Shown: piece after piece, positions 2,477-56,899 of the stretch
Layout: every line of letters starts with the position of its first letter
Position numbering within the stretch: position 1 is the stretch's first letter
Source of the DNA: an uncultured Bacteroidales bacterium
GTDB lineage: Bacteria > Bacteroidota > Bacteroidia > Bacteroidales > UBA932
Reading direction: 5' to 3'
DNA length: 64,000 nucleotides
Assembly: GCA_944322565.1 (NCBI GenBank)
Contig: CALUPG010000004.1
Coordinates: forward strand, 118,994-182,993
The notes under the pieces: model-generated
Databases searched by the model: none
Seen by the model: the letters and a program-made list of their open reading frames with translations, nothing else
Told to the model about the DNA's origin: nothing
Made by a program: the position numbers and the translations under genes

Positions 2477-3736
2477 TTATGCTCCGAAGTTGTCGTAGAG
2501 TATATTCTCCGGCTGTACTCCGAGGCTGTCAAGGAGATTGACTACCGATGCCGACATCATAGGAGGTCCGCACATCAGGTAGAGGCAGTCCTCTGGAGCC
2601 TCATGGTTCTTCAGATAAGTCTCATAGAGCACTGTGTGTACGAATCCAGCAGTATATGCGACATGCTTTGCATCTGCCTCCGGGTCCGGCCTGTCAAGGG
2701 CAAGGTGGAACTTGAAGTTCGGGAATTCCTTTTCAAGTTCATGGTAGTCTTCAAGATAGAAGGCTTCCTTGAGGCTGCGGGCTCCATAGAAGAAGTTCAC
2801 TTTCCTTGTGGTCTTCTCTGTCTTGAAGAGATGCATGATGTGGCTTCTCATAGGGGCCATGCCGGCACCGCCTCCGACGAATATGAGTTCCTGGTCTTCA
2901 GGAAGATTGTCCGGAAGGAAGAATTCTCCGTAAGGACCGGAAATAGTCACCTTGTCTCCCGGCTTGAGAGAGTAGATGTAGGATGAACATACTCCCGGAT
3001 TTACCGGCAGGAACTTCCTTGTCGCACGGTCAACAGGCGGGGTTGCTATGCGGACATTCAGCTTGATGATGTCACCTTCAGCCGGATAGCAGGCCATGGA
3101 GTATGCCCTGAGGGTCGGTTCAGGATTGACCATCTTCAGGTCGAACACGCCCATCTTTTCCCAGTCTTCCCTGTACTCAGGGTCAACGTCAATATTTTTG
3201 TAGTCCACTGTGCAGGCAGGTACATCGACCTGGATATATCCTCCTGACCTGAAGTGAAGGTGCTCGCCTTCAGGGAGTTTGACAACAAATTCCTTGATGA
3301 AGGTCGCCACATTGTGGTTGGAGACGACTTCACATTCCCATTTCTTTACGCTCAGGGCAGATTCGGAGACAACGATTTTCATGTCTTCCTTGACTTTCAC
3401 CTGGCATCCGAGTCTCCAGTGGTTGTTGATCTGCTTCCTGTTGAAGAAGCCCACTTCTGTCGGCAGGATTGTTCCGCCGCCTTCAATCACCTGACATTTG
3501 CACTGGCCGCAGCTTCCTTTTCCTCCGCAGGCGGAAGACAGGAATATCTTCTGCTCTGCAAGTGTGCTGAGCAATGACGAGCCCGGAGTGACTTCGATTT
3601 CCTTCTTGCCGTCGTTGATGCTGATTTTTACTTTACCTGCAGGAGTGAGCCAGATTTTCACGGCCAGGAGCACTGCCACAAGCAATATGGTAATGACCAC
3701 AATGGTTATTACGCCTGATATTATTGTCGTTAACAT
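2477..3736 (-). CDS. nqrF: Na+-NQR subunit F (NADH dehydrogenase, 2Fe-2S/FAD)
   Basis: 419 residues, the entry point for electrons from NADH into the Na+-translocating NADH:quinone reductase. One N-terminal membrane segment (about 5-28) anchors it. The plant-type ferredoxin domain has Cys70, Cys76, Cys79 and Cys111, the same spacing as characterised NqrF. RAYSMA marks the FAD-binding fold and GGGAGMAPMRSH the nucleotide-binding part of the ferredoxin reductase module. It is the last gene of nqrABCDEF, 14 bases after nqrE, and is followed by a strong bidirectional terminator. High confidence. Confidence 0.97.
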   Translation of the reverse strand: MLTTIISGVITIVVITILLVAVLLAVKIWLTPAGKVKISINDGKKEIEVTPGSSLLSTLAEQKIFLSSACGGKGSCGQCKCQVIEGGGTILPTEVGFFNRKQINNHWRLGCQVKVKEDMKIVVSESALSVKKWECEVVSNHNVATFIKEFVVKLPEGEHLHFRSGGYIQVDVPACTVDYKNIDVDPEYREDWEKMGVFDLKMVNPEPTLRAYSMACYPAEGDIIKLNVRIATPPVDRATRKFLPVNPGVCSSYIYSLKPGDKVTISGPYGEFFLPDNLPEDQELIFVGGGAGMAPMRSHIMHLFKTEKTTRKVNFFYGARSLKEAFYLEDYHELEKEFPNFKFHLALDRPDPEADAKHVAYTAGFVHTVLYETYLKNHEAPEDCLYLMCGPPMMSASVVNLLDSLGVQPENILYDNFGA

Positions 3737-3750
3737 TTTTCCCTCCTGTT

Positions 3751-4359
3751 TTAAAGTTGAATGCCCATGAATGTCATGAATGAAATAGCCATGAGCCCTA
3801 CTGTGATGAATGTGATTCCAAGACCCTTGAGGGCATCAGGTACATTCGAGTATGCCATCTTTTCCCTTATTGCAGCGAGGGTTACGATTGCAAGGAACCA
3901 GCCGATTCCAGAACCGAGTGCATATACGGTTGCCTCACCGACATTGACGAAATCCCTTTCCTGCATGAAGAGCGAGCCTCCGAGGATGGCGCAGTTCACG
4001 GCGATGAGCGGAAGGAAGATTCCCAGCTGAGAATACAGTGTCGGGGTGAATTTCTCCACCACCATTTCCACTATCTGTGTGATGGCCGCAACCACTGCGA
4101 TGAAGATTATGAAGCTCAGGAAGCTGAGGTCCACATCCGGAAGTCCTGCCCACGCGAGGGCTCCCGCCTTCAGCACATGCTCATTGAGCAGGTAGTTTAT
4201 TGGAAGGGTCACGAGAAGCACGAAGATCACTGCAATACCCAAACCGGTAGCTGTCTTCACACTTTTGGATACCGCCAGATATGAGCACATGCCCAGGAAG
4301 TAGGCGAATATCATGTTGTCAATGAAAATTGACTTTACGAACAAGCTTAAATATTCCAT
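3751..4359 (-). CDS. nqrE: Na+-NQR subunit E
   Basis: 202 residues with about six hydrophobic helices, the usual size for NqrE. This integral membrane subunit of the sodium-pumping NADH:quinone reductase pairs with NqrD and helps form the ion path and intramembrane iron centre. Family signatures include [20 protein letters not shown] and [17 protein letters not shown]; the Cys in MCSYL and NCAILG are the conserved positions expected to bind iron. It lies between nqrD and nqrF, 18 and 14 bases away, in one operon. Confidence 0.96.
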
Positions 4360-4377
4360 TTCGATTTGAGTTTAGAG

Positions 4378-5001
4378 TTATTTTTCCTGCAGGTCTTTCT
4401 GGATGCTTCTCTGAATCCATACAATCAGTCCGAGGAGTATGAGTGCCATCGGAGGAAGGATCACAAGTCCGTTGTCCATATATCCCGCATCATAGAATGA
4501 CTGCGGAATGATGCGGTATCCGAACAATGTGCCTGATCCGAGGAGCTCGCGGAAGAATGCGAGGACAATAAGTATGAGTCCGTAGCCGGCACCGTTTGCC
4601 AGGCCGTCAAGGAGTGACGGTATCGGCTTGTTGCCGAGCGCGTATGCCTCGATGCGTCCCATCACGATACAGTTGGTGATGATGAGTCCGACATAGACGG
4701 ACAGAGTCTTGCTTATGCTGTATGAGTATGCCTTGAGGAACTGGTCGACAAGGATTACCATCAGGGCAACTACCACAAGCTGCACGATGATTCGTATTCT
4801 GTTTGGAATGGAATTCCTTATGATTGATACGACGAAGCTTGAAAGTCCTGTCACGACGATTACGGACAGTGCCATGACAAATGCTCCCTTGAGCTGTACA
4901 GTGACTGCCAGGGAAGAGCAGATGCCGAGCACAAGGACAGTCACCGGATTGCCCTTGAATATAGGCTTCAGAAGTACTTCTTTAAAGTTGATGTCTTTCA
5001 T
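4378..5001 (-). CDS. nqrD: Na+-NQR subunit D
   Basis: 207 residues, an integral membrane subunit with about six helices, homologous to NqrE and RnfE. Signatures are NPVTVLVLGICSSLAVT and IITNCIVMGRIEAYAL, containing the paired conserved Cys of the NqrD/E intramembrane iron site. The gene starts 3 bases after the end of nqrC, indicating translational coupling. Its role is Na+ translocation coupled to electron transfer from the NqrF side to NqrC and NqrB. Confidence 0.96.
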   Translation of the reverse strand: MKDINFKEVLLKPIFKGNPVTVLVLGICSSLAVTVQLKGAFVMALSVIVVTGLSSFVVSIIRNSIPNRIRIIVQLVVVALMVILVDQFLKAYSYSISKTLSVYVGLIITNCIVMGRIEAYALGNKPIPSLLDGLANGAGYGLILIVLAFFRELLGSGTLFGYRIIPQSFYDAGYMDNGLVILPPMALILLGLIVWIQRSIQKDLQEK

Positions 5002-5004
5002 TGT

Positions 5005-5856
5005 TTACTCCTCCACTGTTTGAGTTGTTTCTGGATTGGTCTCATCCTGGGAATCGGCAGGGACTTCTTCGTCAGCCTGCATTGTCATCAGGTACGGCTG
5101 GTAGTATGTCGCCCAGAGATTGATTCCTCTTCCGAGGGCCTGTGAGGTGATGGTGGCTCCGCTGATTGCATCTACGCAGGTCGGGTCATCTTCATGTTTC
5201 CCCTTTTCAACTGCAAAGACTTTTTCTCCGCTTCCGAAAGCCTTTCCCTGGAATGATGTGTAGAACGGGGCTTCAGCTATCTTGGCACCCAGTCCCGGAG
5301 TTTCTCCCTTGTGGTCGAAGATGGCTCCGACAATGGTCTTTCCGTCTTCTGCGAGTGCAATATAGCCCCATATCGGTCCCCAGAGTCCTGCTCCGTAGCA
5401 AGGAATGACAGTGACAGTCCTGCCGTTTATGTCGAATACGAATACAGGGAGGTCAAGAGATTCAAGCAGCGCGGCTTTGGAAGCCTCATCCTTGGTATCT
5501 GCGATTTTCTTCAGGATGTCGTTCTGCTTCTTCAGGTCTGCAGTCGACGGGACTTTGATGTCACGGACATTTCCCTTGCCCGTGTTGAGATGCTCTTTTA
5601 CATTGCCTAGTCCGTCTACATTGAATGCGTCAGTGATTTTCTCCGCATACATGGCCAGGACATCGGTAGTCTCGTCGATAGTGAGTGCCTCATCTGACTG
5701 TGCGGCGGCACTGAGCACTTTAGTTATGGTCTCAATCTTGATGTTCTCGTTCTGCTTGTCCTGCAGGCTCATTGCCACGAAGGCAAGGATGGCGGCGACA
5801 AGGATGACGAGAACGGTAGAATAGATCACCGTATATGTATTGCCGTTTGTGTTCAT
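5005..5856 (-). CDS. nqrC: Na+-NQR subunit C (FMN-carrying)
   Basis: I start it at the ATG at 5856 (MNTNGNTYTVIYS), giving 283 residues. An in-frame ATG at 5928 would overlap nqrB by 62 bases and adds a non-homologous tail. One N-terminal membrane helix precedes the FMN-binding domain. The SGATIT motif (Thr at about 237) is the covalent FMN attachment site, preceded by Asp in VDAISGAT. NqrC passes electrons between the membrane iron centre and NqrB. A tail after residue 260, rich in Glu and Thr, is longer than usual and probably species-specific. Confidence 0.93.
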   Translation of the reverse strand: MNTNGNTYTVIYSTVLVILVAAILAFVAMSLQDKQNENIKIETITKVLSAAAQSDEALTIDETTDVLAMYAEKITDAFNVDGLGNVKEHLNTGKGNVRDIKVPSTADLKKQNDILKKIADTKDEASKAALLESLDLPVFVFDINGRTVTVIPCYGAGLWGPIWGYIALAEDGKTIVGAIFDHKGETPGLGAKIAEAPFYTSFQGKAFGSGEKVFAVEKGKHEDDPTCVDAISGATITSQALGRGINLWATYYQPYLMTMQADEEVPADSQDETNPETTQTVEE

Positions 5857-5866
5857 ACCTATTATA

Positions 5867-7042
5867 TTAAGCTGTTTTGATTTTCTTTGCCCTTCTGCCC
5901 ATTGATGCCTGTATGACATAGTGGTCAATCAGCGGAGCAAATGTATTCATCAGAAGGATTGCCAGCATCATGCCCTCAGGATAACCCGGATTGAACATTC
6001 TGACTGTCACGGCAAGTGCTCCCACCAGGAATCCGTAGATCCATTTTCCGGTCTCGGTCTGGGCTGAAGTCACAGGGTCAGTGGCCATGAATACCGTTCC
6101 GAATGCGAAACCTCCCATCAGCAGCTGATAGTAGCCCGGAAGGTCTGTAACGCCGACTGCCTGTCCGAGGTAACCTATCGCAAGACCTCCGACCACTGAA
6201 GACAGCATGATTTTCCAGCTGGCGACACCGGTCCAGATGAGTATGACCGCACCGATGAGGATGGCTATTACGGATGTCTCACCGACGCATCCCGGGATGA
6301 CGCCGGAAATGAGATCCCATACATTTGTACCTGCTGCCTGAAGACCTTCAACTGAAGGATGGGCAAGAGGTGTGGCTCCCGAGAATCCGTCCACGAGTCC
6401 GTTCCCGCATGCATAGGCCTTTCCTTCTGCAAGATATCTGGTGGCACCGGCTGTCCAGATGGTGTCTCCGGACATCATGCTCGGATACGAGAAGAAGAGG
6501 AATGCCCTGGCGAGCAGAGCCGGATTCCAGATGTTCATTCCTGTGCCTCCGAACACTTCCTTGCCGAGGATTACGGCGAAAGCGACGGCTAACGCAAGCA
6601 TCCAGAGCGGAACATCCGCAGGAACAATCAGAGGTATGATCATACCTGAGACAAGATAGCCCTCGTTCACTTCATGACCGCGTATCTGTGCGGATATGAA
6701 TTCAATGGCGAGACCTACAATATAAGAGACAAGGTAGAGCGGAATGACTTTCACAAGCCCGTAGCCCACCATGTTCCAGAAGCCCCAGTCGTTCAGACCG
6801 AAGGCGACGCTGTGCTGGTAGCCGGTGTTCCATATTCCGAAGAGCATGGCAGGCACGAGGGCCAGCACCATTATGATCATGATTCTTTTCAAATCGACGC
6901 AGTCCCTGACATGGGAGCCTCTTCTGGTCACTGTGTCAGGCACATAAAGGAATGACTCGAAGGCATCGAAAGTCGAATGAAGGAATCCGAATTTTCCTCC
7001 TTTTTCAAAGGACGGCTTTATTTTGTCGATAAATTTTCTCAT
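5867..7042 (-). CDS. nqrB: Na+-NQR subunit B (FMN and riboflavin-binding membrane subunit)
   Basis: 391 residues, about ten transmembrane helices. A cytoplasmic N-terminal region contains the family signature LHSTFDAFESFLYVPDTVT. GFSGATPLAH carries the threonine to which FMN is covalently bound in NqrB. GTGMNIWNPALLARAF and FMATDPVTSAQTETGKWIYG are also conserved. NqrB holds the quinone site and the main Na+ path. It sits 12 bases after nqrA and 10 before nqrC, in the canonical operon order. Confidence 0.96.
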   Translation of the reverse strand: MRKFIDKIKPSFEKGGKFGFLHSTFDAFESFLYVPDTVTRRGSHVRDCVDLKRIMIIMVLALVPAMLFGIWNTGYQHSVAFGLNDWGFWNMVGYGLVKVIPLYLVSYIVGLAIEFISAQIRGHEVNEGYLVSGMIIPLIVPADVPLWMLALAVAFAVILGKEVFGGTGMNIWNPALLARAFLFFSYPSMMSGDTIWTAGATRYLAEGKAYACGNGLVDGFSGATPLAHPSVEGLQAAGTNVWDLISGVIPGCVGETSVIAILIGAVILIWTGVASWKIMLSSVVGGLAIGYLGQAVGVTDLPGYYQLLMGGFAFGTVFMATDPVTSAQTETGKWIYGFLVGALAVTVRMFNPGYPEGMMLAILLMNTFAPLIDHYVIQASMGRRAKKIKTA

Positions 7043-7054
7043 AACTTTCTTCTT

Positions 7055-8413
7055 TTAAGCCATTTCTTTCATCATAAGGGCTATGCCGTCCGTAATGATT
7101 GACTGAATCTCAATCTTGGAAGGACATACATATTCACAGAGCGCGAGGTCTTCCTCAAGCACTTCATATATTCCGAATTCCTCCATCTTGTCGATGTCGT
7201 TGGCCAGGCATGCCTTCGTGAGGTAGACCGGGTATATGTCCATAGGCAGCACCTTTGAATATACATCCGACATCACGAATGCGCGCGGGCCTCCGTGGAG
7301 GTTGGTATCCATGTCGTATGTCTTTTTGGGCGTAAGCCATGAGAAATAGGTGCGTGAAGTACTGAACAGTTTTGTCCTGAACGGTTTTGCCCATCCGAGA
7401 AGTTCATGTTCATTGCCTTCCTTGATCAGGGTAACCTGAGTGTCAAAGAACCCGAGGAATCCGTCCTCCCCGACATTTTCGCCAGTGAGGACATCACCGC
7501 TGATGAAACGGATGCCGGAGGCGGAGTTGCCGTAGAATTCGCTGATGTCTTTCATCGATATGCCCGGAAGTCCCTTGACATAGGCCGGTTCAATTGCCTT
7601 CGGCCCGGTCACCGCAATCAGTCTGGTCATGTCGTATTTTCCTGTGTTGAGGAATCTTCCGATGGCGGCGAGCATTACCGGGGAAACTGTCCATACTGTG
7701 TCTCCCTTCATTATCGGTGAGATATGATGAATCTGTACTCCGACATTTCCTGCCGGATGTTTGCCGCTGAATGAATGGAAGACGACATTCTCAAGTTTAT
7801 GGAAAACTGAACCGCTGGCATTTGCCGAGTTGAGCGAAACATGCACTTTCCCGTCCGTAAGTTTGGCGAGCGCGTTTACTGCTGTCTGTAGATTTGCGAA
7901 CTCATCCTTCAGAATATATTCCGTGTCTGCAGCAAGAGGCGCTGTCGAGAATGCGGAAACAAAAATGGCCTTCGGCTGTATTGCAGGATTGGCAATGATG
8001 CCGTAAGGCCTCTGGATGATTGCAGGCCAGAGCCCGCTTTTCATCAGAAGGGATTTGATCTGGGCTGCGTCAAGGGAAGAGACATTCCCGACAGCGAAGT
8101 TCAGATATTCCTGGGATGCATCCGCCTTTATGCGGACTTCAAGCAACTTTCTCTTGTCGCCTCTGACAACAGCAGCCACTGTTCCGCTTACCGGAGAAGT
8201 GAAGAGAATGTCAGGCGACTCCTTGTCAGCCAGTACGGGAGATCCTGCGAGGACCTTGTCGCCTTCCTTGACCAGAAGCTTAGGCTTAAGGCCGCGGAAA
8301 TCAGTCGGTTTGACAGCGACAACGTCAGGCACAATCGCCTTTCTGGTCTTGAGGCCGGCACTTCCTGAAATAGGAATGTTCAGGCCCTTTTTCAAATCGA
8401 TGTTGTTTGACAT
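7055..8413 (-). CDS. nqrA: Na+-NQR subunit A
   Basis: 452 residues, close to the usual 445-450. It starts with the typical KKGLNIPISG and contains RGLKPKLLVKEGDKVLAGSP, the biotinyl/lipoyl-like barrel. This peripheral cytoplasmic subunit binds near NqrB and takes part in quinone access. It is the first gene of nqrABCDEF. The 74-base gap to the divergent helicase gene must carry the operon promoter, but no clear TAnnTTTG element is visible there. Confidence 0.95.
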   Translation of the reverse strand: MSNNIDLKKGLNIPISGSAGLKTRKAIVPDVVAVKPTDFRGLKPKLLVKEGDKVLAGSPVLADKESPDILFTSPVSGTVAAVVRGDKRKLLEVRIKADASQEYLNFAVGNVSSLDAAQIKSLLMKSGLWPAIIQRPYGIIANPAIQPKAIFVSAFSTAPLAADTEYILKDEFANLQTAVNALAKLTDGKVHVSLNSANASGSVFHKLENVVFHSFSGKHPAGNVGVQIHHISPIMKGDTVWTVSPVMLAAIGRFLNTGKYDMTRLIAVTGPKAIEPAYVKGLPGISMKDISEFYGNSASGIRFISGDVLTGENVGEDGFLGFFDTQVTLIKEGNEHELLGWAKPFRTKLFSTSRTYFSWLTPKKTYDMDTNLHGGPRAFVMSDVYSKVLPMDIYPVYLTKACLANDIDKMEEFGIYEVLEEDLALCEYVCPSKIEIQSIITDGIALMMKEMA

Positions 8414-8487: not shown

Positions 8488-10887
8488 ATGGAAAACATTG
8501 GAAGTGTGATTTTAGAGGGGCTGAACGGAGGACAGAGACAGGCTGTTGTCTGCACTGAAGGTCCGGTCCTGATAGTAGCGGGGGCGGGTTCCGGCAAGAC
8601 ACGGGTATTGACCAGCCGCATTGCCTATATTCTTGGGCAGGGATGTGCGCCGGAGCGCATCATGGCATTGACATTCACGAAGAAAGCTGCCTCCGAGATG
8701 AAGGAGAGGATTGCCGTGATGGTGGGGGAGAGGAAGGCCCGGAAACTGTTCATGGGAACATTCCATTCCGTTTTCATCAGGTTTCTGAGGGAATATGCCG
8801 AAAGCCTCGGATATCCTTCCGGTTTTACGATTTATGACACAAGTGATTCTGTCAGTGCAGTGAAGGCATGCGTGAAGGAACTCCAGCTGGACGAGAAGGT
8901 CTACAAGCCGAAGGAGGTGCTTTCGCGAATATCCATTGCCAAGAACAATCTTTATACGGCAGAGGCATATGTGTCGAAACCGGAGATAATGCAGAATGAC
9001 GCTGCGCGCAAGAAGCCGAGGACAGGTGACATATATCTGCTGTATGCGAAAAAGTGCAGACAGTCGGGTGTTATGGACTTTGATGATATCCTGTTGAATA
9101 TGAATATATTGCTTCGAGACAACAAGGAAGCTCTCGAAGATATTTCAGGCAGATTCTCATATATCATGGTGGACGAGTACCAGGATACCAATTTTGCCCA
9201 GTACAACATTCTCAGGAAGCTGAGCTCCCGGCATCGCAACATCTGTGTCGTGGGGGATGACTCGCAGTCAATATATGCATTCAGGGGAGCTAAAATTGAA
9301 AATATACTGAATTTCAAGAAAGACTATCCGGACAGCAGCCTTTTCCGCCTTGAGCAGAACTACAGGTCGACGCGGACAATTGTCGATGCCGCGAATTCCC
9401 TTATAGCAAAGAATACTTCCAGAATCCCGAAGACATGTTATTCTGAAGGCGAGGAAGGTCGTAAGATTCAGTTGCTCAATGCATACACGGAACAGGAGGA
9501 AGCATATCTGATATCTTCTTCAATTGTCTCTGAAATTCAGGCGGAACATGCGCAGTATCAGGATTTCGCGATTTTGTATCGCACTAATTCCCAGTCCCGG
9601 GCCCTGGAAGAAGCCCTGAGGAGACGCAATCTTCCGTATGTCATTTTTTCCGGACATTCGTTTTACGAGAGGGCTGAGGTCAAGGACATGATGGCTTATT
9701 TCAAGCTTTCCGTCAATCCGAATGACGATGAGTCGTTCAAGCGCATTGTGAACAAGCCTCTGCGTGGAATCGGAGACACTTCTCTTGCCGCCCTGGCGGC
9801 GGCTGCTTCGGACAAGGGATGTTCTCTCCATGCGGCCGGTCTTGCCCCGGGCCTGGAGACATACGGACTGAAACCGGCTGCTATATCCAGGATTGCCGCC
9901 TTCTGCAATATGATATCGGCATTCAACTCCAAGGCTGTGTCCGGGGATGCATATTCGGCGGCATCTGCGATAGCCATGGAATCCGGACTTCTGCCTGCTC
10001 TGAAAGAAGACACAAGCATAGAAGGTCAGTCGCGCCTGTCGAATGTGGAGGAACTCCTTGACAGCGTGAGCACATTTGAGGAAGAAAAGAAGAATGAATA
10101 TTTCGAGGAGATGCAGGCCGACGGCACTCTTGAGGACGGCAAAGGCCCTGAGGACTGTGACTTGCCGGCAGTGACGCTCAATGACTATCTGGAGAATGTG
10201 TCTCTTCTCAGTGCGGTGGACATGGCTGGCGACGAGGACAGCGCCAACAAGATAGCTCTGATGACAGTACACTCTTCAAAGGGCCTTGAGTTCCCTTATG
10301 TGTTTGTGGCGGGCATGGAGGAGAATCTTTTCCCTTCCGGGGGCCTTCTGGCGACAGAAGCGGACATTGAAGAGGAGAGGCGTCTGTTCTATGTCGCTGT
10401 CACCAGGGCAGAAAAAGCCGTCTGGCTGTCATTCGCGGCTACAAGAATGCGCAATGGCAAGCATGAGTCCAACTCTCCGAGCCGTTTTATAAGAGAGATT
10501 GACAGCAGGTATATAAAGAATCCTCTGCCGCAGAAGTCATCCATGTCCGAAAGATATGCGGATCAGGCTTCAGATGAACCCTGGAGGAGGCATGCGCTTG
10601 CGGAAAAGAGACTGCCAGGCTCGTCTCCTTTCCGTAAGCCGGAGGTCTCTGCCCGCAGAACGCCTCCGGTATCCGCTCCAGTGCCCAAACGGGTTCCGGA
10701 TGTTGATTTTATTCCAACTCCAGTGCTTGAGCTTCGTGAAGGACAGCGGGTCGAGCATAACCGCTTCGGGTACGGAACCATTGTGTCTATATCTGGTGAC
10801 AGGTCGAGCCTGAAGGCGAAGATATCTTTTGATGACTATGGGGAGAAGATACTCATGCTGAATTATGCAAAGATTCGTAGGATTTGA
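8488..10887 (+). CDS. UvrD/PcrA-family ATP-dependent DNA helicase
   Basis: 799 residues of superfamily 1A helicase. Walker A is GAGSGKTR (about 32-39) and Walker B is MVDEYQDTNFAQY (about 228). Motif III is GDDSQSIYAFRGA, motif V VHSSKGLEFPYVFVAG (about 595), and motif VI FYVAVTRAEKAVW (about 635). The last 50 residues (GQRVEHNRFGYGTIVSI) are the PcrA/UvrD Tudor-like domain that binds RNA polymerase. It probably works in nucleotide excision and mismatch repair and in clearing stalled polymerase. It is monocistronic, divergent from nqrA, and followed by a terminator. Whether it is the orthologue called PcrA or UvrD cannot be decided here. Confidence 0.95.
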   Translation: MENIGSVILEGLNGGQRQAVVCTEGPVLIVAGAGSGKTRVLTSRIAYILGQGCAPERIMALTFTKKAASEMKERIAVMVGERKARKLFMGTFHSVFIRFLREYAESLGYPSGFTIYDTSDSVSAVKACVKELQLDEKVYKPKEVLSRISIAKNNLYTAEAYVSKPEIMQNDAARKKPRTGDIYLLYAKKCRQSGVMDFDDILLNMNILLRDNKEALEDISGRFSYIMVDEYQDTNFAQYNILRKLSSRHRNICVVGDDSQSIYAFRGAKIENILNFKKDYPDSSLFRLEQNYRSTRTIVDAANSLIAKNTSRIPKTCYSEGEEGRKIQLLNAYTEQEEAYLISSSIVSEIQAEHAQYQDFAILYRTNSQSRALEEALRRRNLPYVIFSGHSFYERAEVKDMMAYFKLSVNPNDDESFKRIVNKPLRGIGDTSLAALAAAASDKGCSLHAAGLAPGLETYGLKPAAISRIAAFCNMISAFNSKAVSGDAYSAASAIAMESGLLPALKEDTSIEGQSRLSNVEELLDSVSTFEEEKKNEYFEEMQADGTLEDGKGPEDCDLPAVTLNDYLENVSLLSAVDMAGDEDSANKIALMTVHSSKGLEFPYVFVAGMEENLFPSGGLLATEADIEEERRLFYVAVTRAEKAVWLSFAATRMRNGKHESNSPSRFIREIDSRYIKNPLPQKSSMSERYADQASDEPWRRHALAEKRLPGSSPFRKPEVSARRTPPVSAPVPKRVPDVDFIPTPVLELREGQRVEHNRFGYGTIVSISGDRSSLKAKISFDDYGEKILMLNYAKIRRI

Positions 10888-20070: not shown

Positions 20071-20153
20071 CTGTAAGTTGCTGTTGGAGTATTCCGGGGG
20101 CTAAATTAATAATTTTATCAGCACTGGCAGAATTATTGCAGGAAATCCGCCCC

Positions 20154-20306
20154 GGCTGCGGTGTCCGCATGGACTTGATAGGGAATCCGGTCAGAATCCG
20201 GAACAATACCCGTTGCTGTGTGTCCTCAAAAAGGGACTGTACAATATGCCACTGCCTCTGGCGGGAAGGCGTACAGTCAGGACGAGTCAGAAGACCTGCC
20301 GCAGCC
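20154..20306 (+). promoter_or_regulatory. Cobalamin (AdoCbl-type) riboswitch
   Basis: The closing stem GGCTGCGG (20154-20161) pairs with CCGCAGCC (20299-20306). Between them are the conserved B12-box elements: GATAGGGAATCCGGTCAGAA, then GCCACTGCCTC, GGCGGGAAGGCG, and finally AGTCAGAAGACCTGCC. It lies 126 bases upstream of the btuG-like ORF, leaving room for an expression platform, probably one that hides the ribosome site. Expected effect: high B12 lowers expression of the downstream uptake genes. No other long feature is seen in 20071-20431. Confidence 0.95.
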
Positions 20307-20431
20307 ATGACTATAAGTTGCACCGCGGGATTACGGCTTGCAGATTCGTCTTGATGAGATGTTTCCAGGACATTGTGCCCGGGATGTCTTTGGTGCGATG
20401 AAGCCTGTACTTTCCGCCTGAAGACATTAAA

Positions 20432-53756: not shown

Positions 53757-53814
53757 CCCGATAAAAATTTAATCGGGTTCTTAAAAATACTTATATTTGC
53801 ACCGGATATCCGGT
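53757..53814 (+). promoter_or_regulatory. Promoter with two flanking palindromes, scaffold-GGGtGRT operon
   Basis: The -7 element TATATTTG is at 53792-53799. A CCCGAT-N9-ATCGGG repeat (53757-53777) covers the expected -33 position. A perfect 14-base palindrome ACCGGATATCCGGT (53801-53814) covers the expected start site. Both are well placed for a repressor or for a 5' hairpin in the transcript. Confidence 0.6.
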
Positions 53815-53876
53815 CGGGTTCATTTTTATTTTATCTGAGCGGATATTTAATTGGAACAAAATTTATTTAACAGGTT

Positions 53877-54578
53877 ATGGTTTATTCTCACGAAGTGCAA
53901 CAGATGTGTTGCGTCAAAAAAGGACCTAACCATGGTCCGGCTCCTATTCCAGAGGAGGGAAAATGGGTAAAGGCAAAGGAAATCACTGACATCTCGGGAC
54001 TTACACATGGCATCGGCTGGTGTGCTCCTCAGCAGGGTGCCTGCAAGCTGACCCTTAATGTCAAGAACGGAGTCATCCAGGAAGCTCTTGTCGAGACTAT
54101 CGGATGCTCGGGCATGACTCATTCTGCCGCTATGGCTTCTGAAATTCTTCCGGGAAAGACAATCCTTGAGGCACTCAATACCGACCTCGTGTGCGATGCT
54201 ATCAATACTGCAATGCGCGAGCTTTTCCTCCAGATTGTCTATGGACGTACACAGTCTGCATTCTCTGAGGGCGGCCTTATGATAGGCGCAGGCCTCGAGG
54301 ACCTCGGCAAGGGTCTCCGCAGCCAGGTGGGAACTCTCTACGGTACACTCGCAAAGGGACCTCGCTATCTTGAGATGGCAGAGGGATATATCAAGACAGT
54401 TGCCCTTGACGAGAACGACGAGATCTGCGGATACGAATTCGTACACCTCGGCAAATTCATGGACCTCGTGAAGAAAGGCACGGATGCCAATGAGGCTCTC
54501 AAGCAGGTGACCGGCACATACGGCCGCTTCACCAAAGAGGCCGGTGCAGTTAAATACATTGACCCACGTAAAGAATAA
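53877..54578 (+). CDS. NifU/IscU-like iron-sulfur cluster scaffold protein
   Basis: 233 residues. The core resembles the NifU N-terminal scaffold: GWCAPQQGACKLTLNVKNG, then ETIGCSGMTHSAAMASEILP and GKTILEALNTDLVCDAI, matching the family's GC..S.AS......GKTLEEA pattern with Cys at the cluster positions. It has an extra C-terminal region of about 100 residues with a Gly-rich segment (MIGAGLEDLGKGLRSQVG). NCBI-style annotation pairs such proteins with GGGtGRT proteins, encoded 14 bases downstream here. It may build or carry a cluster for that partner. Codons are biased to C-ending forms, suggesting high expression. Confidence 0.82.
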   Translation: MVYSHEVQQMCCVKKGPNHGPAPIPEEGKWVKAKEITDISGLTHGIGWCAPQQGACKLTLNVKNGVIQEALVETIGCSGMTHSAAMASEILPGKTILEALNTDLVCDAINTAMRELFLQIVYGRTQSAFSEGGLMIGAGLEDLGKGLRSQVGTLYGTLAKGPRYLEMAEGYIKTVALDENDEICGYEFVHLGKFMDLVKKGTDANEALKQVTGTYGRFTKEAGAVKYIDPRKE

Positions 54579-54592
54579 GGAGGAAGACGATT

Positions 54593-55603
54593 ATGATAAG
54601 AGAAGTCAAATTCGAGAGCCAGGACCGTCGCATCAAACAGATTCTTGCCGCTCTCAACGAAAACGGTATCAAGGACATCGAAGAGGCAAACGCCATCTGC
54701 GACCAGTATGGTCTTGATCCTTACAAGGCTTGTGAAGACACCCAGCCTATCTGCTTCGAGAATGCAAAATGGGCTTATGTCGTAGGTTGCGCCATCGCCC
54801 TCAAGAAAGGCTGCAAGACCGCCGCTGATGCCGCTGAAGCCATCGGAATCGGTCTCCAGTCATTCTGCATCCCGGGTTCAGTAGCCGATGACCGCAAGGT
54901 CGGACTCGGCCACGGCAACCTCGCCGCCCGTCTTCTCCGTGAAGAGACCAAATGTTTCGCCTTCCTCGCCGGCCACGAGTCATTCGCAGCAGCAGAAGGC
55001 GCCATCAAGATTGCCGCAAAGGCCGACAAGGTGCGCAAGGAGCCTCTCCGCGTCATCCTCAACGGTCTCGGAAAGGACGCTGCCCAGATCATTTCCCGCA
55101 TCAACGGCTTCACATATGTGCAGACTGAGTTCGACTATTTCACCGGCGAGCTCAAGGTCGTTCGTGAAGTGGCCTACAGCAACGGTCCTCGCGCAAAGGT
55201 CAAATGCTACGGTGCCGACGATGTACGCGAAGGCGTTGCCATCATGTGGCATGAGGGCGTAGACGTTTCCATCACAGGAAACTCCACCAACCCTACCCGT
55301 TTCCAGCACCCTGTTGCCGGAACTTACAAGAAGGAGCGTGTCCTCGCAGGCAAGCCGTACTTCTCAGTTGCATCCGGCGGCGGCACAGGCCGTACCCTTC
55401 ATCCGGACAACATGGCCGCAGGTCCTGCCTCATACGGCATGACCGACACCATGGGCCGTATGCACAGCGACGCGCAGTTTGCAGGTTCATCCTCAGTTCC
55501 AGCCCACGTTGAGATGATGGGATTCCTGGGAATAGGCAACAACCCTATGGTGGGATGCACTGTTGCTTGTGCTGTGGATGTAGCCCAGGCTCTGAACAAG
55601 TAG
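54593..55603 (+). CDS. GGGtGRT protein, function unknown
   Basis: 336 residues, recognised by the signature VASGGGTGRTLHPDNMAAGP that names the family. Other conserved parts are EANAICDQYGLDPYKACEDTQ, GHESFAAAEGAIKIAAKADK and NNPMVGCTVACAVDVAQAL; Cys residues in the last motif and in NAICDQYG could be cluster ligands. The family's function is not established. It is next to the scaffold-like gene, 14 bases apart with GGAGGAAG before the start, and probably receives an iron-sulfur cluster from it. Codons are strongly optimised, more so than in most neighbours. Confidence 0.88.
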   Translation: MIREVKFESQDRRIKQILAALNENGIKDIEEANAICDQYGLDPYKACEDTQPICFENAKWAYVVGCAIALKKGCKTAADAAEAIGIGLQSFCIPGSVADDRKVGLGHGNLAARLLREETKCFAFLAGHESFAAAEGAIKIAAKADKVRKEPLRVILNGLGKDAAQIISRINGFTYVQTEFDYFTGELKVVREVAYSNGPRAKVKCYGADDVREGVAIMWHEGVDVSITGNSTNPTRFQHPVAGTYKKERVLAGKPYFSVASGGGTGRTLHPDNMAAGPASYGMTDTMGRMHSDAQFAGSSSVPAHVEMMGFLGIGNNPMVGCTVACAVDVAQALNK

Positions 55604-55740
55604 TCCAAAATCAGCAAAAAGGGTAATTTCTGCGTTACGCTTGTCCCTCAAATCCTCATTTACAGCAGTAAACTGCGGTTTTCTGGGACTTCGCAAGCCT
55701 TGAAATTCCACCTTTTATCTGATTTGCGGATAGAATATAT
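55604..55740. repeat. Possible dispersed intergenic sequence before the IS element
   Basis: This stretch follows the GGGtGRT stop and holds no gene. Its text recalls sequence I associate with repeated non-coding segments in Rikenellaceae genomes, from memory only. No second copy is seen in the window. A short minus-strand ORF across it is not convincing. Confidence 0.25.
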
Positions 55741-55744
55741 AAAG

Positions 55745-55776
55745 TCCCTGTAACTTCATGGGTTACGGGGATTTTT
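55745..55776 (+). terminator. Terminator upstream of the IS3 remnant
   Basis: TCCCTGTAAC (55745-55754) pairs with GTTACGGGGA (55762-55771), with one G-T pair, followed by TTTTT. It probably ends the scaffold-GGGtGRT transcript. Confidence 0.8.
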
Positions 55777-55841
55777 CGTGTATAGAAGTGACTTGAACTG
55801 AAAAAAGTTGACAGATTTGAGAGCATAAATCAAACGAGTCA

Positions 55842-56282
55842 ATGATAGAAAGACACAAGCGAGACATTGTCTTGAAGACCGACCCAGTGACCAGGGAGAA
55901 GTATTGGTCCAACGAGGTAGTCACAGTATACAAACCGGACGAAGGCGACCGGGCAAATGCAGTTCTGGATATTCTTAAAGGCGTAACGACGGCGGAGGAA
56001 GTCAGAAAAAGATTTGACATCGCAACAGTCAACAGCGTATATATGTGGATCGGCAAATATGTAACTCAGGAGAAAGCATTATCTTTGGAAGAACAATCCG
56101 AAGAAGATATGGCCGGGAAAAGTAAAGATGACCAGATCCGGGAACTCCGGGCACAACTCAAGCAGGCACGAAAGGATGCGGAGCTTGAGAAGTTGCGGGC
56201 AAAGGCCTATGACACGATGATTAATTTGGCCGAGGAGACGTTCAACATTCCCATAAGAAAAAAATCTGGCACCAAACGGTAA
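55842..56282 (+). CDS. IS3-family transposase OrfA
   Basis: 146 residues with an N-terminal DNA-binding part (VLDILKGVTTAEEVRKRFDI) and a leucine-zipper-like coiled coil (DDQIRELRAQLKQARKDAELEKLRAKAYDT, given as positions about 95-125). It ends AEETFNIPIRKKSGTKR, typical of IS3 OrfA. Seven A residues at 56258-56264 near its end are a classic site for -1 frameshifting, which would join it to the OrfB frame. Confidence 0.88.
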   Translation: MIERHKRDIVLKTDPVTREKYWSNEVVTVYKPDEGDRANAVLDILKGVTTAEEVRKRFDIATVNSVYMWIGKYVTQEKALSLEEQSEEDMAGKSKDDQIRELRAQLKQARKDAELEKLRAKAYDTMINLAEETFNIPIRKKSGTKR

Positions 56283-56485
56283 GTCTGCTACGCGAGGAAT
56301 GCCCGGGGTATGGCCTGGGCACTCTCTGCGGGCTGTTTGGTTACAGCAGACCATCTTACTATAAATGGGACAGCCGTGAGTTTGCAGAAAATGCCGTCGA
56401 GCCGCTTATCGTGGAAAAGGTAAGTGAGTACCGCAAGAATAATCCCGGTCTGGGGTGCGCGAAGCTATACCTGATAGTCAAACGG
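56225..56485 (+). pseudogene. IS3-family transposase OrfB, truncated remnant
   Basis: In the -1 frame relative to orfA, the frame reads SLLREECPGYGLGTLCGLFG then YSRPSYYKWD and KVSEYRKNNPGLGCAKLYLI, the usual N-terminal part of IS3 OrfB. The frame then continues without a stop into an acetyltransferase. The rve/DDE domain is missing, so this is a broken gene. Confidence 0.82.
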
Positions 56486-56899
56486 TTATTGCCTCTCCTG
56501 CTTGTCGGTGACGAACAGGAATCCATGATTGACAGGTATCTGGAGCGGGGCGAAATGTATGTGATGCAGGATATGTCGGAGACGCCGGTAGCCGTTGCCG
56601 TAGTCACGGATGAAGGTGACGGGGTGCTGGAGCTGAAAAACATAGCCGTAGACCCGCGTTTCCAGGGAAAAGGATACGGACGGGAAATGATCGAATATCT
56701 GTGCCGGAATTACAGGGGACGGTTCCGGGTCCTGACAGCCGGGACGGGAGACAGCATGAAGACTATGTCATTCTACAGGAACTGCGGATTCACCTGGTCG
56801 CATACCGTAGAGGATTTTTTCGTAAAGAATTATGACTACCCAATAATCGAGGAGGGCAGAGCCCTGAAAGATATGGTTTATTTCAAACGCAACTTATGA
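56411..56899 (+). CDS. GNAT acetyltransferase fused to a transposase fragment
   Basis: The frame given runs 162 residues from a GTG at 56411. Residues 1-24 are OrfB sequence. From RLLPLLLVGDEQESMIDRYL on it is a GNAT acetyltransferase, with VLELKNIAVDPRFQGKGYGR (the acetyl-CoA loop), VLTAGTGDSMKTMSFYRNCG and a tail DFFVKNYDYPI. Typical members of this type have only about 12 residues before LLPLLL, so the IS remnant has replaced the original start and first strand. Translation may begin within IS sequence, from an internal ATG at 56525, or by frameshift from orfA. Substrate is unknown; it may be active or a recent pseudogene. Confidence 0.7.
   Translation: MEKVSEYRKNNPGLGCAKLYLIVKRLLPLLLVGDEQESMIDRYLERGEMYVMQDMSETPVAVAVVTDEGDGVLELKNIAVDPRFQGKGYGREMIEYLCRNYRGRFRVLTAGTGDSMKTMSFYRNCGFTWSHTVEDFFVKNYDYPIIEEGRALKDMVYFKRNL

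Follow-up and report, generated by a model that had tools for sequence, protein, structure and literature searches.

A 64,000-nucleotide stretch of contig CALUPG010000004.1 from an uncultured Bacteroidales bacterium (assembly GCA_944322565.1), called the window here, carries two neighbouring genes, one for an IscU-like scaffold and one for a GGGtGRT protein (PF14057). We put at about one half the probability that the pair is a dedicated iron-sulfur (Fe-S) scaffold with its client enzyme, used when iron is plentiful, and that islands with a tyrosine integrase use the 3' end of the GGGtGRT gene as their insertion site in relatives. The insertion site, as read from sequence comparison, is the new part of the analysis and had escaped the earlier note; GGGtGRT was not found described as an island site in the limited literature searched. 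The scaffold-client part is the best-fitting reading, in which the scaffold likely holds a cluster and passes it on, and the GGGtGRT protein likely acts as a catalyst.

An earlier note on this DNA, made without database searches, had joined a NifU-like scaffold with a conserved protein of no known job, and both ORFs (open reading frames), their coordinates and their family matches bear it out. The scaffold ORF (53877..54578, plus strand, 233 amino acids; from ORF calling, domain search and alignment) is followed after 14 bp by the GGGtGRT ORF (54593..55603, plus strand, 336 amino acids; from ORF calling, Pfam and alignment). The latter matches PF14057, a family of unknown function, over its full length (639.7 bits against a cut-off of 27; profile positions 1-327 of 327). 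The scaffold scores 20.5 bits with NifU_N (PF01592), just below the Pfam cut-off of 22, and 29 of 30 scaffold relatives match the same domain at E 0.01 or better; it falls short of the cut-off of the SufU equivalog of NCBIfam, TIGR01994 (18.4 of 92.5 bits). High expression, which the earlier note deduced from strongly optimised codons, is likewise predicted here: on an index referenced to 24 minus-strand ORFs that lie in this genome's ribosomal-cluster region and include a few non-ribosomal ones, the GGGtGRT gene ranks first among the 40 window ORFs of at least 150 amino acids (0.881; median 0.787), a DnaK-like ORF reaches 0.857 and the scaffold is third (0.843).

The IscU-like character of the scaffold is supported by both profile and fold comparison. 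Its cysteines C49, C77 and C106 are invariant in all 30 sequences compared, and C11 and C56 are kept in 29. IscU chains are among the matches of a profile built from 30 scaffolds (E 3.7e-5), and in the alignment C77 falls on an IscU cysteine; IscU has three cluster-ligand cysteines, and C77 alone of the three invariant scaffold cysteines aligns with one. In a model of a fused scaffold-GGGtGRT protein, ISCU chains are the first Foldseek match of the scaffold half (E 3e-4, probability 1.00, template-modelling score 0.54 on the target), a comparison resting on a model of modest quality, with a predicted local distance difference test score (pLDDT) of 52-73 over residues 31-120.

The GGGtGRT protein is extraordinarily uniform: 145 of its 336 residues are invariant in 44 sequences from several phyla, among them H107, H128, E129, K161, D162, R169, H239, R267, H270, D272, H291, D293 and H305. 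Two cysteines, C36 and C205, are invariant, and C121 is present in 43 of the 44. Conservation is densest at 261-320 (49 of 60 residues invariant). The predicted structure (pLDDT 78.6, predicted template-modelling score 0.81) combines a helical N-terminal portion with an alpha/beta one, and its pLDDT drops below 50 at 230-237, 262-292 and 297-312, mostly inside the most conserved stretch; structure comparisons returned no confident fold relative. A segment of about residues 261-320 that is most conserved and modelled with low confidence when alone would fit a ligand or partner site.

The two genes are rarely found apart. In 295 genomes of the order of the window organism, GGGtGRT is present in 60, the scaffold in 59 and both in 58; the genomes with a single gene are G058 and G200, where a contig edge cuts the pair, and G126, where the match is partial. 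No GGGtGRT match was found in the other 235. The scaffold lies upstream of GGGtGRT in 86 of 90 loci (some scaffolds are cut by a contig edge, and that of L100 is in two pieces), and the remaining four (L002, L037, L086 and L107) are themselves cut at a contig edge. A first sample of 61 genomes, which includes the window's own genome and 36 of its genus, had given a GGGtGRT match in 13, some of them fragments only. Record titles place pair loci in Bacteroidales, Treponema, Clostridia and Succinivibrio, and a plasmid collection adds Vibrio, Persicobacter, Collinsella and Subdoligranulum; the same gene order thus recurs in loci from Bacteroidota, Spirochaetota, Bacillota, Actinomycetota and Gammaproteobacteria. 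Spacing is not uniform: about 470 bp separate the genes in L063 and L085, and a 63-amino-acid ORF lies between them in a Parabacteroides distasonis record (L141, 11791-11982).

Two further lines of argument were tried and set aside. The gene neighbourhood gave no function, as neighbours vary among the 80 named loci, whose ORF lists were judged by eye; in Collinsella, sufB-sufD-sufS-sufU and one transposase precede the pair. ORFs that fuse scaffold and GGGtGRT make up 26 of 120 listed proteins (P0009 and P0054-P0064 among them), many with a common linker. As proof of contact they are given little weight, because their break points scatter and nearly all are singletons; they are either real deletions or assembly faults.

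The iron link of the pair is stronger than the earlier note could know. In Bacteroides thetaiotaomicron depleted of iron with dipyridyl, BT0173-BT0174 (GGGtGRT and NifU) change by -12.8 to -11, while the same paper gives falls of 2.7- to 3-fold for ferritin and a rubrerythrin family gene, and of 2.5- to 3.4-fold for a further gene set (PMC10434189/PMC5395762). In Clostridium pasteurianum grown with iron, GGGtGRT is higher 7.1-fold early and 2.2-fold late, and the NifU-like protein of the neighbouring locus tag, found in two spots, is 2.4- and 3.7-fold higher early (PMC10434189/PMC5395762). A chicken-gut study reports GGGtGRT as highly expressed in vivo in several taxa (one of PMC7035244, PMC11204068, PMC9942572). 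The iron-sulfur reading of the earlier note gains from the two published pairs, and expression would be expected to track iron supply in the window organism too. SUFBD (SufB/D-type) genes elsewhere in the window genome show that the pair is not its sole Fe-S machinery. The further gene set that falls in iron-depleted B. thetaiotaomicron is the one that we take to include Rnf; Rnf-like electron-transport ORFs, which are presumably an Rnf cluster, also lie in the window at 2480-8413 on the minus strand.

The mechanism we favour starts from the observed association of the two genes, in one order, across five phylum-level groups, and from their response to iron. The scaffold would carry an Fe-S cluster on C49, C77 and C106 and pass it to the GGGtGRT protein, which we would class as an enzyme and not a store, given how many His, Asp, Glu, Arg, Lys and Asn are among its invariant residues; such a client might be worth making only with iron at hand. 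A rival account sees the pair as an iron or iron-sulfide store, an abundant complex that would load Fe-S units in times of plenty and release them in shortage. It would suit the tracking of iron, with a fall in B. thetaiotaomicron steeper than that of ferritin in the available data, the very high expression predicted from codon bias and the high expression reported from chicken gut; but GGGtGRT has only two invariant cysteines, and its invariant charged and polar residues would resemble an active site, not a storage shell. We hold a store to be unlikely.

Distinctly improbable is the proposal that the IscU-like protein feeds GGGtGRT as a sulfur or zinc-dependent persulfide carrier of the SufU kind instead of serving as a cluster scaffold. 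SufU works without holding a cluster, which provides a precedent, and SufU chains are among the structural matches; IscU-type chains, however, outrank them, none named SufU appears in the profile-search list, and a response to iron is what one would sooner expect of a cluster system. That the pair is a second general Fe-S assembly line backing up SUF would agree with the IscU-like fold and with the position near suf genes in Collinsella, but is very hard to credit: the window genome has SUFBD genes, 235 of the 295 genomes of the order lack a GGGtGRT match, the unit itself has no desulfurase gene, and in the published data available the pair falls, not rises, in iron shortage. The scaffold-client reading can be extended, quite tentatively: GGGtGRT and its IscU-like partner may form an unrecognised two-protein Fe-S enzyme system with a private scaffold, switched on at high iron in gut anaerobes and vibrios, and several kinds of island, some with defence-like cargo, may have docked independently at the 3' end because the gene is so unchanging.

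The islands are best seen in three genomes. In G263 (a single-contig genome), Bacteroides fluxus and G032, the island has the whole gene and an integrase at one side, and its other side is marked by a further copy of the gene's 3' end. The integrase starts about 340-370 bp behind the gene, which reads full length beside it in all three. In G263 a 405-amino-acid tyrosine integrase lies about 345 bp behind the gene, and a 194-bp copy of its last codons, 92% identical, follows about 12.4 kb on; the arrangement spans about 24 kb in B. fluxus and about 18 kb in G032, a member of the window's genus in which uvrB flanks the locus on the side where the window has it. In a Phocaeicola massiliensis record the island is short and its integrase truncated. 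PF17293, PF13102 and PF00589 all exceed their cut-offs in the G263 and G032 integrases, and the B. fluxus and G032 enzymes share 75% and 73% identity with the G263 one, other listed matches reaching at most 43% (E 1e-60, 295 genomes).

A viral contig collection adds eight integrase copies at least 74% identical, four of them 290-370 bp behind a GGGtGRT 3' end and the other four at the very edge of a contig. Two contigs, 3300032167_005224 and 2898051414_000005, have two integrases each with a 3'-end copy between them, which indicates two islands in tandem; the first integrase of 2898051414 is 99% like that of G263. On two further viral contigs, integrases 67% and 56% identical stand beside a 3' end, the 56% one being oppositely oriented. 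Most aligned copies have their left edge at about codons 279-283, and G263, B. fluxus, the P. massiliensis record and viral contig 2898051414 have most of the last 20 bases up to codon 280 in common. Beyond its copy, B. fluxus continues with NhaC, DUF4251 and a response regulator, as does the downstream region of the undivided B. finegoldii gene, with five other genes in between there.

Sequence comparison places islands with an integrase of about 405 amino acids directly behind the gene and has them end in a second 3'-end copy, so that the gene stays whole; the arrangement would arise through site-specific recombination near codons 279-300. In the window itself the duplicated stretch (codon 280 to the stop, 55430..55603, plus strand; from sequence comparison) is single, so the site is empty, and a sequence search there found no 3'-end copy and no integrase of this kind. 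Several islands have arm-like repeats, two direct and one inverted, in the stretch that separates the stop codon from the integrase (L143, 2772-3115; L200, 2303-2670; L142, 6012-6390). These short repeats, which we take to be arm-type sites, differ in sequence from island to island when compared by eye, as if arm sites and integrase co-evolve. Cargo differs as well: AbiGi-like and PLD-type genes in G032, a nucleotidyltransferase with a HepT-like partner in the P. massiliensis record, and a resolvase and a D12 methyltransferase in B. fluxus; DUF3871 recurs in G263 and G032 together with RadC and a short second integrase. No relaxase was found among the island ORFs scanned with Pfam, which are part of the total. 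Other 3'-end copies start at about codons 299, 302 and 311 with no integrase visible nearby; these could be remnants or belong to other elements. L059 has a 62-bp 3'-end piece inverted about 110 bp behind the gene (6846-6907 against 7183-7122) and a 35-bp direct piece about 1.9 kb on (6977-7011 against 8946-8980), which by their sequence look like the rearranged remnant of some insertion.

Several observations weigh against the island part of this reading. No excised form was seen, and right flanks are too variable for a clean empty site: none could be matched when G094 and G186 were set against G263, or the window, G026 and G061 against G032. In G321, a candidate empty site, the contig ends about 125 bp behind the gene. 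Of 99 loci that have 1 kb of sequence downstream, only 3 have an integrase within 1.5 kb, and of 67 upstream none does; this count excludes L142 and L209, whose integrases lie 0.4 and 1.4 kb past the gene, and L124, which has too little sequence. A 3'-end piece is in view in 4 of 58 loci with at least 3 kb downstream. Contig breaks are common around the pair: among 80 loci of the genome_contigs set, the sequence runs out less than 1 kb past the stop codon in 13, starts less than 1 kb ahead of the scaffold in 7, and has the scaffold missing or cut in 6. They lend some colour to the idea that the repeated 3' ends are plain duplications or assembly faults, not island ends. Yet in each of G263, B. 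fluxus and G032 a single contig holds gene, integrase and copy, with the same integrase subfamily at the same place, and the islands have a common right-end sequence up to codon 280; we regard this idea as extremely far-fetched. A diversity-generating retroelement was also considered as the cause and dropped: no reverse transcriptase was recognised by eye among the insert ORFs, a dedicated search not having been made.

Upstream of the pair, the earlier note had placed two palindromic operators that would keep it tightly regulated. The palindromes themselves are there: a 21-bp near-palindrome with one mismatched pair, CCCGATAAAAATTTAATCGGG, lies over the presumed -33 region (53757..53777), and a perfect 14-bp palindrome, ACCGGATATCCGGT, at the predicted start site (53801..53814). 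Neither is conserved in relatives. Among 78 other upstream regions, the best matches have 6 and 4 mismatches, and shuffled sequences reach minima of 5-7 and 3-5, so the relatives do no better; even L051 and L055, which encode proteins about 96% identical to those of the window, have not kept them. The survey for recurrence before orthologous pairs, which that note had itself proposed as a check, goes against the operators, and by its own yardstick the idea falls. As a class, such palindromes exceed chance weakly: the window has six perfect palindromes of at least 14 bases where 4.2 are expected, and seven near-palindromes of the CCCGATAAAAATTTAATCGGG type against 6, 1, 3, 5 and 4 in five controls. 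What is common to the relatives is the promoter type: the window has a Bacteroidota-type -7 box, TAtaTTTG (53792..53799, plus strand), called from what we take to be the Bacteroidota consensus, and the pattern TAnnTTTG occurs in 59 of the 78 other regions where shuffles give 10.2 +/- 2.9. This sharing does not extend to the two operators.

Operators of a regulator private to this lineage would place the palindromes well, over the -33 region and the start site, and the two coincide in only 60 of 5000 shuffles of the promoter of the pair; set against the 78 regions with no counterpart of either and a window count of 14-base palindromes near chance, the odds against such a regulator are long. Perfect palindromes of at least 12 bases occur in 10 of the 78 regions (8.2 +/- 2.7 expected). 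Those of at least 14, differing in sequence, occur in six (for example L032, L033, L042, L056, L075 and L088) against 2.6 +/- 1.5 in shuffles, from which unrelated long palindromes appear somewhat frequent in promoters of the pair. A regulon marked by CCGGATATCCGG was considered and rejected. The genome has 37 places with at most one mismatch, four of them exact, against one for a reversed control, although this control has GGCC in it and may not be a fair comparison. Of these places, the three exact copies outside the promoter of the pair were inspected and do not look like promoters: one is within a long ORF (L018), one in a hairpin just past an ORF (L020), and one (L021) within a coding frame that is presumably L13-like.

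Downstream, a predicted intrinsic terminator, GTCCCTGTAACTTCATGGGTTACGGGGATTTTT (55744..55776, plus strand; from sequence and RNA fold), would end the transcript of the pair. Between the GGGtGRT stop codon and this terminator lies a 130-bp imperfect palindrome (55606..55735), and the RNA fold of both together (55600-55790) has a z-score of -6.15; a partial copy of the palindrome, 77% identical, lies at G000:C6:37307-37405. Beyond, an ORF at 55842-56282 has no Pfam match and is followed by a GNAT ORF (56411-56899) whose first residues we take to resemble an IS3-type transposase start. By sequence, 55842-56899 is possibly an insertion-sequence remnant fused to an acetyltransferase. Far from the pair, the window has a cobalamin riboswitch (20142-20317, 96.2 bits).

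Proteome lists repeatedly feature GGGtGRT, a widespread protein of unknown function, and a fixed Fe-S-type partner with an iron response in two phyla makes its function testable in B. thetaiotaomicron BT0173-0174. For Bacteroidales, the island site would provide a defined chromosomal position served by an integrase subfamily of its own, at which gene traffic in the gut could be tracked.

Among known systems, the window scaffold is closest to the IscU/NifU N-terminal domain (PF01592), with which it has in common the fold, by model comparison, a weak profile similarity over residues 49-113 and C77. It differs in scoring below the Pfam and NCBIfam cut-offs, in about 110 extra residues at the C-terminus, in having CAPQQG where the usual first-cysteine loop stands, and in its partner, GGGtGRT and not a cysteine desulfurase. 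SufU has the same IscU-like fold and its chains are among the structural matches, but the match is weaker (the 18.4 of 92.5 bits with TIGR01994). The islands resemble the tyrosine-integrase islands of dusA and trmE in having an integrase beside a conserved gene, and those of the SGI1 type sit at the trmE 3' end (PMC4482086, PMC8409611); as far as the available portions of these papers go, the islands here differ in their target, GGGtGRT, in their Bacteroidales hosts and in an integrase with Arm-DNA-bind_5 and Phage_int_SAM_5 domains. Within PF14057, the window protein is no different at the family level; what is added to the family is a fixed partner gene, an iron response and an island site.
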